Shown here: positions 33,461 to 40,728 of the stretch, in pieces
How positions within the stretch are numbered: position 1 is the stretch's first letter
How the letters are laid out: each line of letters starts with the position of its first letter
Source of the DNA: Granulicella sp.
Lineage (GTDB): Bacteria > Acidobacteriota > Terriglobia > Terriglobales > Acidobacteriaceae
Length of the DNA stretch: 64,000 nt
Assembly (NCBI GenBank): GCA_027450185.1
Contig: DAIDKF010000005.1
Span: 304 to 64,303, forward strand
Reading direction: 5' to 3'
Translations under genes and position numbers: made by a program
The notes under the pieces: model-generated
The model's input: the letters and a program-made list of their open reading frames with translations, nothing else
Databases searched by the model: none
What the model was told of the DNA's origin: nothing

Positions 33461-34573
33461 ATGAGTGAGTTGGTGCGGCTGGGCGGGTGGAACGCATGGA
33501 GGCGGCTGCCGAAGCATGCGGCTCTGGGGATCCTGACGACAGCCTGTTGCCTGCTACCCTTGACCGCTGATATGCACGCTCAATTCTCAGAGGATTTGCC
33601 GGATGCGCCGAGCGCGCTGCTGTCTGGGGGAGCGGCTGGACATCCGGATGCAGTGGCAGTCAAGGCGCGGGATGTGGCACTGAGTGTACCGGACGCTGCA
33701 CCACAGAACGCGGCGCAGCAGACACCGCAAAATCCGAAGACGCCGACCAATCCGGCGGAGAGTCCGGCGCCGCTTCTTCCCGGGGCTGCGCCGTCTGCGG
33801 TGCCGGTTGCGCCGTCAGGCTCGCAGATTTTTGTTGAGGGCTCGCAGACTCCTTCGGGTCAGGCCGAGTCCGCCAAGTTGCCACCGTGTCCGAAGCACAT
33901 GCATTCCAGGCATCTGCCGATCATCTTTCTGCCCGAGACGCAGCCAGGCTGCGAGGACCAGTTGCAGTTGATCGTCGAAACCGAAAACGTAAAGCCCCTT
34001 TCGGTCCGGGAGAAAGGGGTGCTGGCCGTCCGTTCCGTGATCGACCCATTCAACCTGCTCACGATTGCAGGCTTTTCGGCCATCTCGACTGCGGCGGATG
34101 CGCACACGGCGTATGGTCCGGGCTTTCCCGGATGGGGCAGGCTGAGTGGATACAGCCTTGCGGAAGATATTCAGGGAACGTTCACCGGAGTCTACCTGAT
34201 TCCGGTTCTGGTGCATGAGGATCCGCGCTATCACCGCATGCCCCGAGCGACGATCCGCCGACGCATTGAACATGCTCTGATTCATACCTTCATCGCGCAG
34301 CATGATGATGGCTCGCTGATGCCGAACTATGCGACGCTGATCAATTACCCGCTGAGCGCTGAGATCTCTAATCTGTACGTTCCGGATATTGGGACGAATG
34401 CCTCCTCGACGGCCAAGCGCGTCTTGGCGGGATATGCTACCGATCCGGTCGGTCCGATAGTCGCCGAGTTTCTTCCCGACGTCGCTAAGCGCATCCACAT
34501 CCATATCATCTTTGCGCAGCAGATCCTTAACGCGATTGCCCTTGGCTCTGGCGCACAGCCCTCATCGTACTGA
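33461..34573 (+). CDS. Exported protein of unknown function
   Basis: This 370-residue protein has a signal peptide (HAALGILTTACCLLPLTADMHAQ, cleaved near residue 41), a proline/alanine-rich low-complexity linker to about residue 140, and a better-conserved-looking C-terminal half. The latter has LSVREKGVLAVRSVIDPFNLLTI, HEDPRYHRM and GYATDPVGPIVAEFLPDVAKRIHIHI. The same general plan, an exported protein with a DPFN-type segment, is familiar from acidobacterial genomes, where I know of no assigned function. ATG 33461 is preceded by AAGGGAAAT. It converges on bamA through a shared hairpin, so the two genes are separate units. Confidence 0.78.
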   Translation: MSELVRLGGWNAWRRLPKHAALGILTTACCLLPLTADMHAQFSEDLPDAPSALLSGGAAGHPDAVAVKARDVALSVPDAAPQNAAQQTPQNPKTPTNPAESPAPLLPGAAPSAVPVAPSGSQIFVEGSQTPSGQAESAKLPPCPKHMHSRHLPIIFLPETQPGCEDQLQLIVETENVKPLSVREKGVLAVRSVIDPFNLLTIAGFSAISTAADAHTAYGPGFPGWGRLSGYSLAEDIQGTFTGVYLIPVLVHEDPRYHRMPRATIRRRIEHALIHTFIAQHDDGSLMPNYATLINYPLSAEISNLYVPDIGTNASSTAKRVLAGYATDPVGPIVAEFLPDVAKRIHIHIIFAQQILNAIALGSGAQPSSY

Positions 34574-34667: not shown

Positions 34668-37600
34668 TTAGAACGAGGTGCTGATGGTTAGGCGGAACGT
34701 CTTGCGCGGCTCGCGCAGGATGTAGTCCGCGCCGTAGTATTGCAGCGCCTGCTGATAGGTGTAAGCCGCTGCCGCCGGAGAGGTGGCGAACGGGAAGAAG
34801 TCCTTGAAGCAGTTGATGGCCGTACCCGAACAGGCCGCGCCGCTGGGTGCAACGAGCTGCTGGGGCAGATCGCGGAACAGGCGCATCGGGTTGTAGGCGT
34901 AGTAGATGATGAAGGGTGCGTTGATGATCGGCATGATCACCTGAAGATACGCACCGTCCGACATGCGGGGCACGACGTTGGTGTTCGGTACGTTCTTGAG
35001 GTACTCGGAGAACGGCGGCAGTTGATAGCCTCCGACGCAGTTGCCGTTGACCACCTGCGGGCAACCATAGAGCGGGCTGTTGAGTGTGGTGATGCCCTCC
35101 GGGCTCTGGCGAAGTTGGGTTGGCTCGGCGTTCATCGTAACGCCGAAGTCAGAGAAGAAGGCGAAGGTGACCTCGTTGGAGATGGGGAAGCGATACTCCA
35201 GGTTGGAGGTCAGGGAGAGGTCGCCGCCAATTGGCGCCAGGCGATAAATGGGCAGAGGAATCTGCACATTGCCCAGTGTTGGATTGCTGGGATCGCGCGG
35301 TACTTGCGAGCCATCGGGGTTGGTCAGGTTGTACATGACCTTGATGGGAAGGAAGGTGTAGGGCGAGATGGAGCGGATGTCGAAGCCGCGCAGGTCGTTT
35401 TCACCGCCACCGTAGATACGCGAGAAGGGTGGCGCCACCTGGCCGCCATAACCGGCGATGTTTGCGATCTGGACACGGTAGCCCAGCACGTTGTGGCCTT
35501 CCTTGTTGATCTTCAAGCCCTTCATGGGGAAGAACTGACGCCACGAGGCAACCGGCGAGTAGTACTTCGTGTTGCCGCCCACACCGGCGAGCTGGAAGGC
35601 GAGGCTGAAGTCCTTGCCGCTGTGGGGGCCAATGGCACGATCCAGGGTCGAGAAGCTGAAGCTGGGCGTGATGACCGACGTGATGATGCCATTCAACTGG
35701 TTGGGGCCGGCAATGCCCGACCGGAACGCCAGGGTCTGGAAGACGCTGAGCGTGTTCTGGTTGAACGCCGCGATGCCGGAGCTGGAGTACGAGTAGGACA
35801 GCCCGATACGGGCCACGCCGCTGCGCCGGAATAGCTTGCGGAGCGCCTCGCTGGTGGTGATCGTGATGCCCTTCGACGACTGGTTGTAGTTGTTCAGCAG
35901 AGACTGCTCGGCGTTGGTCAGGTTCGTGCTTTGACCGCTGGTGATGGCGTAGCTCTTCGACGGGTTGAAGTCCGTCTTGCGATCGAAGACCTGGATCCCC
36001 AGCGAGATGGGCTTGTTGTACAGATAGGGCTCGGTGAAACCGAAGCTCAGGTTGCGGGAGAGGTCGCCGATATTAGCCGCCACATCCAGCGTTTCTCCCA
36101 GTCCGAGGAAGTTGTTGGTCTGGTAGTTGAGGCCCAGGAAGGAGCCCGACAAGCCGCTGACGCCGCCATTGATGCCGATCGAGTTCTTGCCCTTCTCGTG
36201 CAGTTTGACGAGCAGATCGACTGTCCCGGCGTCCGCATTCTGCTGGGTCTCGACGTCCTGGTCGGTCTTGAGGGTGTCGAAGTAGTTGAGCTGATTCAGG
36301 CGCAGGAGCGAGAGGTCGACCAGCCGGCTGTTGTAGACCTGGCCTTCTTCGACCAGCATCTCGCGGCGGATGACGCGGTCGCGGGTGAGCGTGTTGCCGG
36401 TGAACTCGATGCGTGAAACGTAGAACTGCTTGCCCTCGTCGATATCGACGTTAAGATAGACCAGCTTCTTGGCCTCATCGGTATGCGGAATCGGCGTAGG
36501 CACCATGTTGATGTAGCCGCCCTCGCCGTAGGCCTTGCGCAGGTTCTCAATGCCTTTGCCGAATAGCGTGGCGTTGAACCACTCGCCATCCTTCTGCGGG
36601 AACTGGGCGCGCAGGGCCTTGGCATTCTGATAGGCCTTGTTGCCGGTAAAGGTGATGCCGCCGAGGCGATAACGATCGCCTTCTTCGATGGGGATCACGA
36701 TGTCGACACGCTTGCCGTGCGATGGGTGCAGGGTAAAGATGTTGATACCGCCGGCGTTGCGGACGTTGGTCTGCGGTTCGGCCGTAATGGCGTGAAAGTA
36801 GCCCTTGTCGCGGTAGGCCTGGCGCACGCGGTCCGCGTCCTCATCGAGCTTGCTGGCGTCGAAGGTGCGGGGGAAGAGGTCCTCGAAGATGATGGAGTGC
36901 GGAATGCCGATGGGGCGCAGGTTCCGCATAGCCGCTACGAGTTGGCGGTGAGTGAGGGCCGTATTGCCGGTGAAGGCGATCTTGCCCACCTTCACGGTCG
37001 GTCCTTCCTTGATGATGAAGGTCAGCGCAACGCGCGCGGGCGGAATCGTCTTGACCTCGGTCTTGATGACGGCGAACTGGTGGCCATGCTCGCCCAGCAT
37101 CTCCTGGAGGACGACCTCGGCTCGCTTGACGCGAGTCTCGTCGAACTGGCTCTCGACGGTGAGGCCGACCTTCTCCTTCTTCATGCGCTCCATGGCGTCG
37201 GAGACGGAGAACGAGTTCAGGCCCTTATACTCAATCTCGCTGATGGTGGGCTTCTCGCGGACATAGACCTCCAACTGGAGGCAGCCGTCGCCGGGAACCT
37301 TCTCGATGCGCACGTTGTCGAAGTAGCCGGTGTTCCAGAGGGAGTTAAAATCACGCTCCACTACGGCCGGATCGTAGGGGTCACCGGCGTGGCTGAACAG
37401 TCGGGCGACGATCGACTCCTTGGGGATGCGGCGGTTGCCGATGACCTGGATCGGGCAAAGGATCTGCGGCGCGGACTCGGCCGAGAACTGCGGCGTAACC
37501 TGAACCTGCGCTCCGGCGGTGGAGACCAGCGCCGGGACAGCAGCCAGGATTGCCGCGAGGCTCAGGCTCGAAAGGCCCCAGCGGGGAACGCGGTTCAAGC

Positions 37601-37691
37601 CGGAGCGGTTCTGGCCGAAGCCAAGGATGCCCAATCGGCTCGAGCGCGTGCGCACAGGCTGGGTCGTACACTTCAGGGAGCTTGCGCTCAC
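34668..37691 (-). CDS. bamA: Outer-membrane protein assembly factor BamA
   Basis: BamA inserts beta-barrel proteins into the outer membrane. From the preferred GTG at 37691 the protein has 1007 residues. A long basic n-region precedes a signal segment (LSSLSLAAILAAVPALVSTAGA). Five POTRA domains follow, beginning IQVIGNRRIPKESIVARLFSHAG, with repeated VRIEKV-, VGKIAFTGNTALTH- and ISRIEFTGN-type segments. The Omp85 barrel (GGVSGLSGSFLGLNYQ, ending RLTISTSF) contains the conserved loop-6 VRGF-like sequence as LRGFDIRS. The frame stays open to 37784, and GTG codons at 37784 and 37715 are alternatives, so the start is uncertain. It is longer than proteobacterial BamA (about 800), mainly through larger barrel loops. 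Other Bam genes are not nearby. Confidence 0.94.
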   Translation of the reverse strand: MSASSLKCTTQPVRTRSSRLGILGFGQNRSGLNRVPRWGLSSLSLAAILAAVPALVSTAGAQVQVTPQFSAESAPQILCPIQVIGNRRIPKESIVARLFSHAGDPYDPAVVERDFNSLWNTGYFDNVRIEKVPGDGCLQLEVYVREKPTISEIEYKGLNSFSVSDAMERMKKEKVGLTVESQFDETRVKRAEVVLQEMLGEHGHQFAVIKTEVKTIPPARVALTFIIKEGPTVKVGKIAFTGNTALTHRQLVAAMRNLRPIGIPHSIIFEDLFPRTFDASKLDEDADRVRQAYRDKGYFHAITAEPQTNVRNAGGINIFTLHPSHGKRVDIVIPIEEGDRYRLGGITFTGNKAYQNAKALRAQFPQKDGEWFNATLFGKGIENLRKAYGEGGYINMVPTPIPHTDEAKKLVYLNVDIDEGKQFYVSRIEFTGNTLTRDRVIRREMLVEEGQVYNSRLVDLSLLRLNQLNYFDTLKTDQDVETQQNADAGTVDLLVKLHEKGKNSIGINGGVSGLSGSFLGLNYQTNNFLGLGETLDVAANIGDLSRNLSFGFTEPYLYNKPISLGIQVFDRKTDFNPSKSYAITSGQSTNLTNAEQSLLNNYNQSSKGITITTSEALRKLFRRSGVARIGLSYSYSSSGIAAFNQNTLSVFQTLAFRSGIAGPNQLNGIITSVITPSFSFSTLDRAIGPHSGKDFSLAFQLAGVGGNTKYYSPVASWRQFFPMKGLKINKEGHNVLGYRVQIANIAGYGGQVAPPFSRIYGGGENDLRGFDIRSISPYTFLPIKVMYNLTNPDGSQVPRDPSNPTLGNVQIPLPIYRLAPIGGDLSLTSNLEYRFPISNEVTFAFFSDFGVTMNAEPTQLRQSPEGITTLNSPLYGCPQVVNGNCVGGYQLPPFSEYLKNVPNTNVVPRMSDGAYLQVIMPIINAPFIIYYAYNPMRLFRDLPQQLVAPSGAACSGTAINCFKDFFPFATSPAAAAYTYQQALQYYGADYILREPRKTFRLTISTSF

Positions 37692-37960
37692 TCGGATTCC
37701 GGTAAAGATAACCACACCCTCACTGCTCTTTGAATCTGTCAAAGCTTGTTGGATTCTGCTGTTGATTCCAGCCCTGCGATACACGAAGGGGAGAGCTTTG
37801 ATTATAGGCGACTCACGGCAACCGATGCGAACCCGGGGATTGGCAAACTTGAGCTTGGGCCATTCTTTTGGGATGGGCCGATGGATTTGGGCCGGGATGC
37901 AGCCGAAAGAATGGTGGCGCGAAGTGGCGGTCGAGAGCCGAGCCGCCGCCGCATTCGGCG

Positions 37961-39610
37961 TTACCGTTTGCCGTAGGGGGCGGTCAGGGAGAGCAGGTCG
38001 GCACCCTTGAGAAACGTGGTCAGCGTGGCCGTCAGTTGCGGCTGGATGACGCTTAGGGGGGCCATGGTGTCAAGACTCTCCACCTTGAGCAGGATCGGAA
38101 TGGGGCGCGTCGTATCGGCCTGCAGGGGAACGCCGCGGTGGGGCCAGGCGTAGACCAGGGTCATGTGCTGGGTGGTTTGGGAGAATTGGCGGCAAGCGCC
38201 CTTATCGCACACGGTCGAGGCTTCGAGTTTCTGAATCGCGCCATTATTGTAGGTTGCTGCGGTCAGTTCCACCTGCCCGCCGGCGGTTGCGGCAACGATT
38301 TGCCCATGCCAGGTGGGGTCTTCTCCGCGTGCAATATGGCAGACCTCGGCGTCATGGACGGTTTGTGGCGAGACGCCGAGCATGACCTGCTTGCCCGCTG
38401 TACCATTCGCATCTGCTGGAGCCGCATACACGCCCCAAGCGTAGATTAGCACTCCCAATTGGGTCTCGTTCCATGTCCGTTGCAGCGTGAAGTTGCCTAT
38501 GTGCTCAGGAAATTGGGGCATCTCCCTTGCAGATGCCGCTGCCACTGCTGCGTCCACCCGATGTTCATGTATTACATCCACGCCGAAGATCGCTGCTATA
38601 GCCAGCATAGCGGCAACCTTGCTAAGAATTGGCCAGGCTCGAACGCGATCTGGTTGCATGAGCGACGGAGAGGAATCAACAGGGGGTCGCTTTAATTTCT
38701 CAATGGCGGTAAAGAAGATTGCCAGGGCAATCACAAAGATGCAAGCACCCACGATGTGATCGGCCAGTTCCTCATGTGGTCCCAATCTCGGATAGCTGAC
38801 CGAGATCCTGTCATAAATGACCATGCTGCACAGCCGCAGAAAGTTGAAGACATACCCCAGTAACACGCCCGCGACGACTACGGGAAAAAAGACGAACCAG
38901 CGGAAACGGTAGTAATACGCGATCACAATGGCAGTCAGTCCCATGGTGATGGAGCCGCGTAGACCATCGCATCCGGGAGCGATGAACATCCCCGTAGTAG
39001 GCGAAAACATGAGCCGGAGATCCACGGCGTTGAGATGGACACCGATCACATGCGCGAAGTTCCGTGCAACGAGGGCCCCAGCGTGCTGCAATGGCACATC
39101 CACGCGGCGGCTGAATGTTTGCGGAACCGGAATGACAGCCCACATCAATAGAACGGGGAACCAGGCGGCGCGCAGCAACCGCATTCCCCCGAACAACAGG
39201 ACCAGGCTGGCAGCATACAACACGGCGACTAGTGGCAGTGGCGGCAGTTGCAGCAGCCAATCCTTGTTCACGGTCACGATGAACAGCATCTGATCGCGAA
39301 TGAATACCAGGAAAACTCCGCCCGCCAGAAGGACGAAGCCCCACCATGTGCCCTCTGTCTCCCAGCCAATGGCGCGCCAGTCACGCAGGATAAGGGCAAA
39401 GCATACAAAGGGGACAGCAAGGCCGACGGACTTTAGCGCGTCCGTTTGCCATATGCTCAAAAGCGCCTGAACGGTGCCATAAATAGCAAACAATCCCACC
39501 GCAGCGCACAAACACGCGAGCGCAACTACGACTTTCGGCTTCAGCCCAAAAGAAACGGGACACACCACAAGTCCCGCGGTGCTATCGGAAGTGTGGGTCT
39601 CAATGGTCAC
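37961..39610 (-). CDS. Exosortase (XrtJ-like) with fused C-terminal EpsI-like domain
   Basis: Exosortases are polytopic membrane cysteine proteases/transpeptidases that process proteins carrying a C-terminal motif-helix-basic tail. This 549-residue protein has about eight membrane segments, the active-site segment IAPGCDGLRGS with cysteine 214, an arginine in NFLRLCSMVI, and the histidine in ADHIVGACIFV. After about residue 330 a separate soluble-looking domain follows (IGNFTLQRTWNE, GVSPQTVHDAEVCHIARGEDPTW), which resembles EpsI, usually a separate protein. The start is uncertain: GTG 39610 avoids overlap with the upstream small gene, but no strong ribosome site is seen and the frame is open to 39733. 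The neighbouring PExPT-type protein is its likely substrate. Assignment to the XrtJ subtype is from recall of that pairing in Acidobacteria. Confidence 0.85.
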   Translation of the reverse strand: MTIETHTSDSTAGLVVCPVSFGLKPKVVVALACLCAAVGLFAIYGTVQALLSIWQTDALKSVGLAVPFVCFALILRDWRAIGWETEGTWWGFVLLAGGVFLVFIRDQMLFIVTVNKDWLLQLPPLPLVAVLYAASLVLLFGGMRLLRAAWFPVLLMWAVIPVPQTFSRRVDVPLQHAGALVARNFAHVIGVHLNAVDLRLMFSPTTGMFIAPGCDGLRGSITMGLTAIVIAYYYRFRWFVFFPVVVAGVLLGYVFNFLRLCSMVIYDRISVSYPRLGPHEELADHIVGACIFVIALAIFFTAIEKLKRPPVDSSPSLMQPDRVRAWPILSKVAAMLAIAAIFGVDVIHEHRVDAAVAAASAREMPQFPEHIGNFTLQRTWNETQLGVLIYAWGVYAAPADANGTAGKQVMLGVSPQTVHDAEVCHIARGEDPTWHGQIVAATAGGQVELTAATYNNGAIQKLEASTVCDKGACRQFSQTTQHMTLVYAWPHRGVPLQADTTRPIPILLKVESLDTMAPLSVIQPQLTATLTTFLKGADLLSLTAPYGKR

Positions 39611-39650: not shown

Positions 39651-39842
39651 CTACTGCTTCTTAGGTGCGCGGCGCGCACGAATGCGCGTACGCACGTTCG
39701 TGACCGCGAACACTCCGCTCGCCAGACCAGCAAGAATCAAAGTCGGATTCTCGGGCGTGTCGGGGCAGCCGCCCTGAGCACGAGCCGGTATGGCAGCGAT
39801 CAATGCAAATGCGAGAGCAGTGAGGAGAAAGGTCTTCTTCAT
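39651..39842 (-). CDS. Tiny PExPT-CTERM-type exosortase substrate
   Basis: This 63-residue protein has three parts. Residues 1-22 are a signal peptide (KKTFLLTALAFALIAAIPARA). Residues 23-34 are a very short core, QGGCPDTPENPT, with one cysteine and the PENPT motif. Residues 35-63 are a membrane helix (LILAGLASGVFAVTNV) with a basic tail (RTRIRARRAPKK). This is the layout of an exosortase sorting signal, and PENPT fits the PExPT form reported for acidobacterial exosortase partners. AGGAT lies about seven bases before the ATG. The exosortase gene begins about 40 bases downstream on the same strand. If both cleavages occur, only about 12 residues remain, so the product may be a peptide, a lipid- or glycan-linked tag, or a regulator instead of a normal surface protein. 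Confidence 0.86.
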   Translation of the reverse strand: MKKTFLLTALAFALIAAIPARAQGGCPDTPENPTLILAGLASGVFAVTNVRTRIRARRAPKKQ

Positions 39843-39993: not shown

Positions 39994-40143
39994 CGATTGT
40001 CAGCACGAAACCCGTTCCTTTTGAAACACCCTTTCGGTTGTCATCGCCTCTTTGTGGCGGCGATGCGCCAGCAACTGGCATCCGGCTGTAAAATCAGGCC
40101 TTGGAGCCGGAACTTCCGGCAGATTCAGGAGGCTGCGAACACC

Positions 40144-40728
40144 ATGGCATCGGCAATGGCAGGTATGGAGGCCCTTACGGGCGTATATGACGGTCTGAAG
40201 ACGCGGATGACGAAGACGGTCGATGACTTTCGCGCCAATCTGGTAAGCGTGCGCACGGGTCGCGCCTCGGTCCACATGCTGGACGGCATCAAGGTTGACT
40301 ACTATGGTACTGAGACGCCGATTTCTCAGGTGGCGCAGATCACGACCCCGGAGGCGAACCTGATTCTGGTCCAGCCGTGGGAACAGCCGCTGGTCCCGGC
40401 GATTGAGAAGGCCATCCGCACCAGCCAGCATGGGTTCAACCCGATGCATGACGGCAAGATCATCCGCGTGCCGGTGCCCCCAATGACCGAGGAGCGGCGC
40501 AAGGAGACGGTCAAACTGCTGGCCGGAACCGTGGAGGACCACAAGACCTCGCTGCGGAACATTCGACGCGAAGGCAACGAGACGGTGAAGAAGGCCGCCA
40601 AGGAGAAGCTCATCTCCGCCGATGATGAGAAGCGCGCCATCGCCGAGATCCAGGAGCTCACCGACGTAGAGATCAAGCGCATCGACGAGCTGTTCCGCGC
40701 CAAGGAAAAGGAAGTGATGACGATCTGA
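40144..40728 (+). CDS. frr: Ribosome recycling factor
   Basis: RRF acts with EF-G to split the post-termination ribosome. The 194-residue protein shows the family's domain order: a helical start (YDGLKTRMTKTVDDFRANLVSVRTGRASVHML), then YYGTETPISQVAQI, the ASN-like TTPEANLILVQPWE block, IRVPVPPMTEERRKE and the long C-terminal helix ending ELFRAKEKEVMTI. ATG 40144 is taken as start; AGGAGG is 11 bases upstream, and ATGs at 40156 or 40165 are alternatives. The first residues (MASAMAGMEALTG) are a short extension. pyrH, a common neighbour in other phyla, is not adjacent. Confidence 0.96.
   Translation: MASAMAGMEALTGVYDGLKTRMTKTVDDFRANLVSVRTGRASVHMLDGIKVDYYGTETPISQVAQITTPEANLILVQPWEQPLVPAIEKAIRTSQHGFNPMHDGKIIRVPVPPMTEERRKETVKLLAGTVEDHKTSLRNIRREGNETVKKAAKEKLISADDEKRAIAEIQELTDVEIKRIDELFRAKEKEVMTI

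Follow-up and report, generated by a model that had tools for sequence, protein, structure and literature searches.

The tiny protein encoded beside exosortase J (XrtJ) in a genome of the soil acidobacterium Granulicella quite possibly acts as a stand-alone exosortase sorting tag in trans, providing a thiol peptide as linker or anchor in proportion to a surface partner, a reading we hold tentatively. It is favored because the tag is usually separate, its copies follow partner genes as much as the enzyme, its core is near-constant between phyla, and its thiol is matched by thiols in the enzyme. The reading is built on conservation, motif geometry, thiol co-conservation, and genome association, from which we infer all chemical steps.

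The window, i.e., the whole stretch of 64,000 nucleotides analyzed here, shows the gene order folP (presumably, as read from the ORF), frr (divergent), tag, xrtJ, and bamA, with the following features:

39651 to 39842, minus strand: PExPT-CTERM tiny protein of 63 aa, TIGR04200, target of exosortase J (profile match, pN/pS)
39777 to 39842, minus strand: signal peptide, residues 1-22, ending ARA|Q (AxA|Q type), with predicted cleavage (A-Q pattern across relatives)
39741 to 39776, minus strand: core and signature, residues 23-34, QGGCPDTPENPT, where constraint within the tag gene is highest (pN/pS 0.151)
39765 to 39767, minus strand: Cys26, near-invariant, four residues before PE (alignment of distinct tags)
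39696 to 39740, minus strand: hydrophobic helix of the sorting signal, residues 35-49 (sequence reading)
39654 to 39695, minus strand: basic tail, residues 50-63 (sequence reading)
37961 to 39610, minus strand: exosortase J, TIGR04199, 549 aa from a proposed GTG start (679.1 bits, cut-off 200)
34668 to 37784, minus strand: BamA, longest ORF with the true start inside, next gene on the same strand (profile match)
39997 to 40728, plus strand: ribosome recycling factor frr, longest ORF with the true start inside, divergent neighbor and synteny marker (profile match)

The 63-residue ORF reported by the first-pass annotation is present exactly at these positions, 40 nt 5' of the exosortase J gene, on the minus strand, which that annotation had omitted; an AGGA precedes its ATG by 7 nt. 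Its anatomy of signal peptide, short core, helix, and basic tail is as described there, with both cleavage sites predicted. Across 14 orthologous genes, pN/pS is 0.305 overall; the signal peptide (0.365) and the helix plus tail (0.346) lie above this value, and the core Q23-T34 drops to 0.151, in line with strong purifying selection. Thus, the tag gene is very probably translated, and the core is its most constrained part. By this selection pattern and its profile match, the ORF is a genuine gene, beyond chance. It matches NCBIfam TIGR04200 (targ_of_XrtJ, PExPT-CTERM) with 78.2 bits at a curated cut-off of 40, and exosortase J, the enzyme expected in a genome with this family, lies adjacent. 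With 78.2 and 679.1 bits, respectively, tag and enzyme pass both curated cut-offs and represent the already catalogued pair TIGR04200/TIGR04199, to which our sequence comparisons would add the signature Cys, the enzyme thiols, a lipoprotein partner, a PECPT subgroup, a split gammaproteobacterial form, and longer variants. Our literature search, with its limited coverage of subscription journals, returned no functional explanation of exosortase J or PExPT-CTERM and no paper on DUF3485.

The tag system shares with PEP-CTERM/EpsH (exosortase A) the tripartite C-terminal signal, the exosortase core, the EpsI association, and a link to exopolysaccharide genes (PMC1569441). The PEP-CTERM/EpsH signal is located at the end of larger proteins, of which a genome can have up to dozens, whereas in the tag it makes up nearly the whole exported peptide and contains an invariant Cys. 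Instead of the substantial cargo domain of canonical PEP-CTERM proteins, only about 12 residues lie between signal peptide and helix in the window tag. This tininess, pointed out before for the single substrate, holds family-wide: a signal model from the Cys onward (A4), run on 44 genomes at E<=1e-7, gives 65 strong matches in 37 genomes, 64 of which are tiny when the closest start that yields a signal peptide is taken. Longer PExPT proteins, which in large numbers would have contradicted the first-pass annotation, are rare (one of these 65 matches; three over all searches), and those found count against a tag in trans. The first, in G526 (L131:5063-5746), is collagen-like, rich in Gly and Pro, and about 190 residues long; it ends in GGGCSDSPENAT followed by helix and tail, and thus carries the tag in cis. 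In L263, about 45 residues separate the signal peptide from the helix, and the 128-aa protein of G517 has CTPSPENGT ahead of the helix. All three retain the Cys motif behind spacers, and none matches Pfam at E<=0.01. These longer versions would suit an ordinary or vestigial PEP-CTERM protein that has lost its cargo and has no special role. We consider this very improbable, as constraint on the gene peaks in the core, nearly all strong matches are tiny, and the tags are paired with partners in two phyla.

The tag signature reads C-x-[DN]-S-PExPT. Its Cys is found at -4 from PE in 100 of 102 distinct XrtJ-type tags, at -5 in one, and is missing from one; this set includes relatives from near-identical species and excludes an ordinary PEP-CTERM row (L056) and a false tag row (L012, PQPAT). 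As the spacing to PExPT is fixed and that to the signal-peptidase-like site varies among tags, the Cys belongs to the sorting signal. Judged by this geometry, it is part of the signal and not free cargo, and the earlier division of the approximately 12 residues into cargo plus signal is not supported, given the fixed spacing in 101 of the 102 tags.

The main rival explanation starts from the same Cys. In a MYXO-CTERM-like lipopeptide anchor, the Cys would be lipidated, exosortase J would remove the helix, and the resulting membrane lipopeptide would recruit the partner. Like the tag, MYXO-CTERM has an invariant Cys within its C-terminal sorting signal, located before the helix and an Arg tail and predicted to be lipidated (PMC11980579). 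Moreover, Gly precedes the Cys in 96 of the 101 Cys-bearing tags, and 21 of them fit a lipobox-like pattern with G also allowed at -2. The other 80 fail this pattern, and for most tags a lipobox reading of the Cys was rejected; Gln occupies -3 in 68 of the 101 and Thr -1 in two, and the window tag reads QGGC where the lipobox is [LVI][ASTVI][GAS]C. Further, eight residues lie between Cys and helix in the window tag, and the distance in MYXO-CTERM differs from that in the PExPT tag. The enzymes differ as well: MYXO-CTERM, which ends large cargo such as TraA, is served by a different protease family, and the enzyme adjacent to the tag is an exosortase and not a CPBP-type protease. Taken with these mismatches, a lipopeptide anchor appears unlikely.

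Exosortase J itself carries candidate partners for the substrate thiol. The catalytic-type residues of the exosortase core are present as C214 and R259, each kept in 30 of 31 relatives, and the His tested as candidate third catalytic residue is a Tyr in 26 of 31 exosortase J sequences. The window enzyme has an additional Cys, C261, and, in its C-terminal domain, H419, C424, C468, and C473. Both RLC, with the Cys two after the Arg, and the C-terminal CX4C occur in all 31 fused XrtJ sequences (29 of 29 in a recheck), and RLC also in four of four split forms. RxC is absent from all 19 ordinary exosortase rows of this phylum (18 genes; 21 loci given), and CX4C from all 17 ordinary EpsI/DUF3485 proteins, each of which has an HSP-Cys motif. 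Alongside the sole Cys-less tag, in G304, the exosortase reads RLF, and the EpsI there is a separate, canonical protein (DUF3485, 63 bits) that showed no CX4C on inspection. Since G304 loses both sides in the direction predicted, this one case suggests that the substrate Cys is matched by the exosortase J thiols.

The C-terminal domain of XrtJ gives no Pfam match to PF11984 (EpsI/DUF3485), and its profile comparison with EpsI is weak (probability 4.6, P 0.0087; FP, IG, H, and C align), so that we use "EpsI-like" as a label. A Foldseek search with the XrtJ model yielded no match at E<=0.001; an Eag chaperone or PsbP-like fold, indicated by weak matches (best 0.072), was set aside.

Tag and enzyme largely share their distribution. 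Of 297 phylum genomes, 13 exceed the XrtJ cut-off, and these are exactly the ones that exceed the tag cut-off. In a family sample of 300 genomes (E<=1e-6 for the tag, E<=1e-30 for XrtJ), the tag is found in 37, XrtJ in 36, and both in 34, leaving three with the tag only and two with XrtJ only. The latter are G419, with a match to the C-domain alone, and G517, with its longer tag. The former are G304, whose exosortase is diverged, G373 with one tag (L152), and G559 with seven (L102-L108). Neither G373 nor G559 yields an exosortase at E<=1e-5 despite these tags, which counts against the reading in trans; an assembly gap, contamination, or enzyme-free tag use may be the cause. In G434, a single contig of 6.2 Mb, three exosortase J genes and three tiny tags are present, with no other exosortase at E<=1e-5.

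By the clustering used, tag and enzyme lie within two genes of each other for 27 of 55 tags, a number that is too low, since the clustering missed some enzymes. Such proximity would be expected of a dedicated activator, chaperone, or occupancy sensor of exosortase J, a role that is improbable given that tags outnumber the enzyme in G147 (3 to 1), G202, G456 (5 to 1), and, with no exosortase found, G559. In G456, five tags of the same core lie beside lipoproteins, with one XrtJ; more generally, tags often have lipoprotein or polysaccharide-export genes as neighbors and no exosortase gene nearby.

Members of the lipoprotein family concerned are about 640 aa long and combine a lipobox with an N-terminal domain, in which four Cys are invariant, and an NHL propeller; the structure model (mean pLDDT 88.4) matches NHL propellers with a best E of 6e-15. 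As the four Cys are even in number, they may pair with each other, which would speak against the tag acting in trans. For L137:7110-9044 and its relatives (A1, A7), the best Pfam stretches lie in the propeller part (six members scanned), and the family reaches up to 35 copies per genome.

A gene of this family is located within two genes, on either strand, of 24 of the 55 tags, where about 1% would be expected (chance expectation 0.57 for the 52 tags with known copy numbers). These tags come from 61 stretches chosen for tags or XrtJ and not for the lipoprotein; from the 25 initially counted, L129 was dropped because its NHL protein is without the lipoprotein N-domain. A second scan, on genome contigs, places the lipoprotein beside 39 of 66 tags in 65 loci, with species overlapping those of the first. 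Both counts refer to chosen rather than random loci that are not phylogenetically independent. In the family sample, the lipoprotein occurs in 33 of 37 tag genomes versus 28 of 263 tag-less ones (Fisher 8e-23, not phylogeny-corrected; at most nine candidates scored per genome), and its presence in these 28 shows the family to be independent of the tag. Among the tag genomes, G000 (54% complete), G539, G304, and G341 lack it. The association also holds within genera: G559 has tags and lipoproteins and G007 and G171 have neither, likewise G373 versus G311. A C-terminal Pro was rejected as a system-specific mark of the lipoproteins, as it occurs in 22 of 23 complete ends in XrtJ genomes versus 13 of 17 in XrtJ-less ones.

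A PECPT subgroup of seven tags keeps different company: five of the seven lie upstream of, and within two genes of, an SLBB/Poly_export gene followed by a Wzz-type gene (OPX/Wzz), as assigned by gene clusters with Pfam on one locus. Ten of the 55 tags are without any of the four tested neighbors, which counts against the in-trans reading, as does the window locus: no beta-propeller lipoprotein adjoins the tag, where BamA is found instead, and none was detected in this genome, which is 54% complete. bamA lies within three genes of 12 of the 55 tags, the class to which the window tag belongs, a proximity that may be plain synteny within the genus. Next to bamA, a 370-aa protein (33461-34573) without Pfam or NCBIfam match at E<=1 recurs in related loci.

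ScyF, an NHL-repeat PEP-CTERM protein of cyanobacteria, likewise is a beta-propeller protein served by an exosortase, but it is annotated with the signal in cis, whereas the propeller protein described here is a lipoprotein whose gene is distinct from that of the signal. Over the propeller, the L137 and L273 lipoproteins score 51.7 and 62.7 bits with NF035926, far under its cut-off of 350.

The tag-lipoprotein pairing appears to recur in Gammaproteobacteria. Four records with this label, two of them Nevskia, contain eight tags at E<=1e-10. The tags are tiny where they could be read, one being cut by a contig end, and two Nevskia-labelled ones pass TIGR04200 with 41.5 and 52.2 bits. A lipoprotein sharing this N-domain lies next to six of the eight tags (two in G566, one each in G567 and G568, two in G569); the G568 protein has 946 aa and scores 107 bits with the N-domain model. 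As for the remaining two, one in G569 has a lipoprotein 3.6 kb off and one is without any. G566, G567, and G569 encode an XrtJ-type core of 264-299 bits (one ordinary exosortase scored 30), and no exosortase was found in the 2.3-Mb record of G568. All four records being metagenome bins, misbinning is possible, but unlike most acidobacterial exosortase J genes, those of the three genomes are split, with a separate adjacent domain that carries H-x4-C and CX4C and has weak profile scores of 10 to 24 bits. Two Rhodanobacteraceae-labelled loci (L233, L262) were rejected as an independent phylum, as they show the acidobacterial order peptidase-tag-xrtJ-lipoprotein and are probably misbinned.

The first-pass annotation had left a peptide signal, a linker, and a dedicated activator side by side. 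The partner genes without enzyme and the copies in G456 favor the linker; an activator and a diversifying pheromone fit poorly with a core that is near-constant between phyla. A short secreted peptide released by exosortase J would agree with the product size, the several tags per genome, and the exported precursor. The chance of such a signal is nevertheless small, considering the nearly identical core between phyla, the clustering of tags with lipoprotein and export genes, and recurrent neighbor clusters in which no receptor or kinase family is prominent (single neighbors are partly annotated).

For the tag as a linker or anchor in trans, we propose the following sequence of events. After export by Sec and trimming by signal peptidase I, the tag would be held in the inner membrane by its C-terminal helix. 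Exosortase J would then cut near PExP|T and pass the Cys peptide of about 12 residues to an acceptor, possibly a lipid or polysaccharide. The attachment partner of exosortase substrates is treated as open in two papers (PMC1569441, PMC12188702); a lipid is plausible, since archaeosortase substrates become lipid-anchored (PMC7157517). Subsequently, the invariant Cys would make or accept a second link, a disulfide or lipid, probably aided by the extra thiols of exosortase J. The resulting linker or anchor would be small and bifunctional and would be required in proportion to its surface partner: often the beta-propeller lipoprotein, the polysaccharide-export apparatus in the case of PECPT tags, and at the window locus presumably some client beside BamA. 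In its most specific form, with exosortase J conjugating a thiol peptide whose Cys, together with thiols borne by the enzyme, then serves to join it to surface lipoproteins or polysaccharide machinery, and the signal split from its cargo in at least two phyla, the proposal has a modest chance of being correct.

A natural substrate of about 12 residues would be an ideal probe for exosortase chemistry, as mass spectrometry could directly reveal its mature form and adduct. Should the tag indeed act in trans, protein sorting signals would need no fusion to their cargo.
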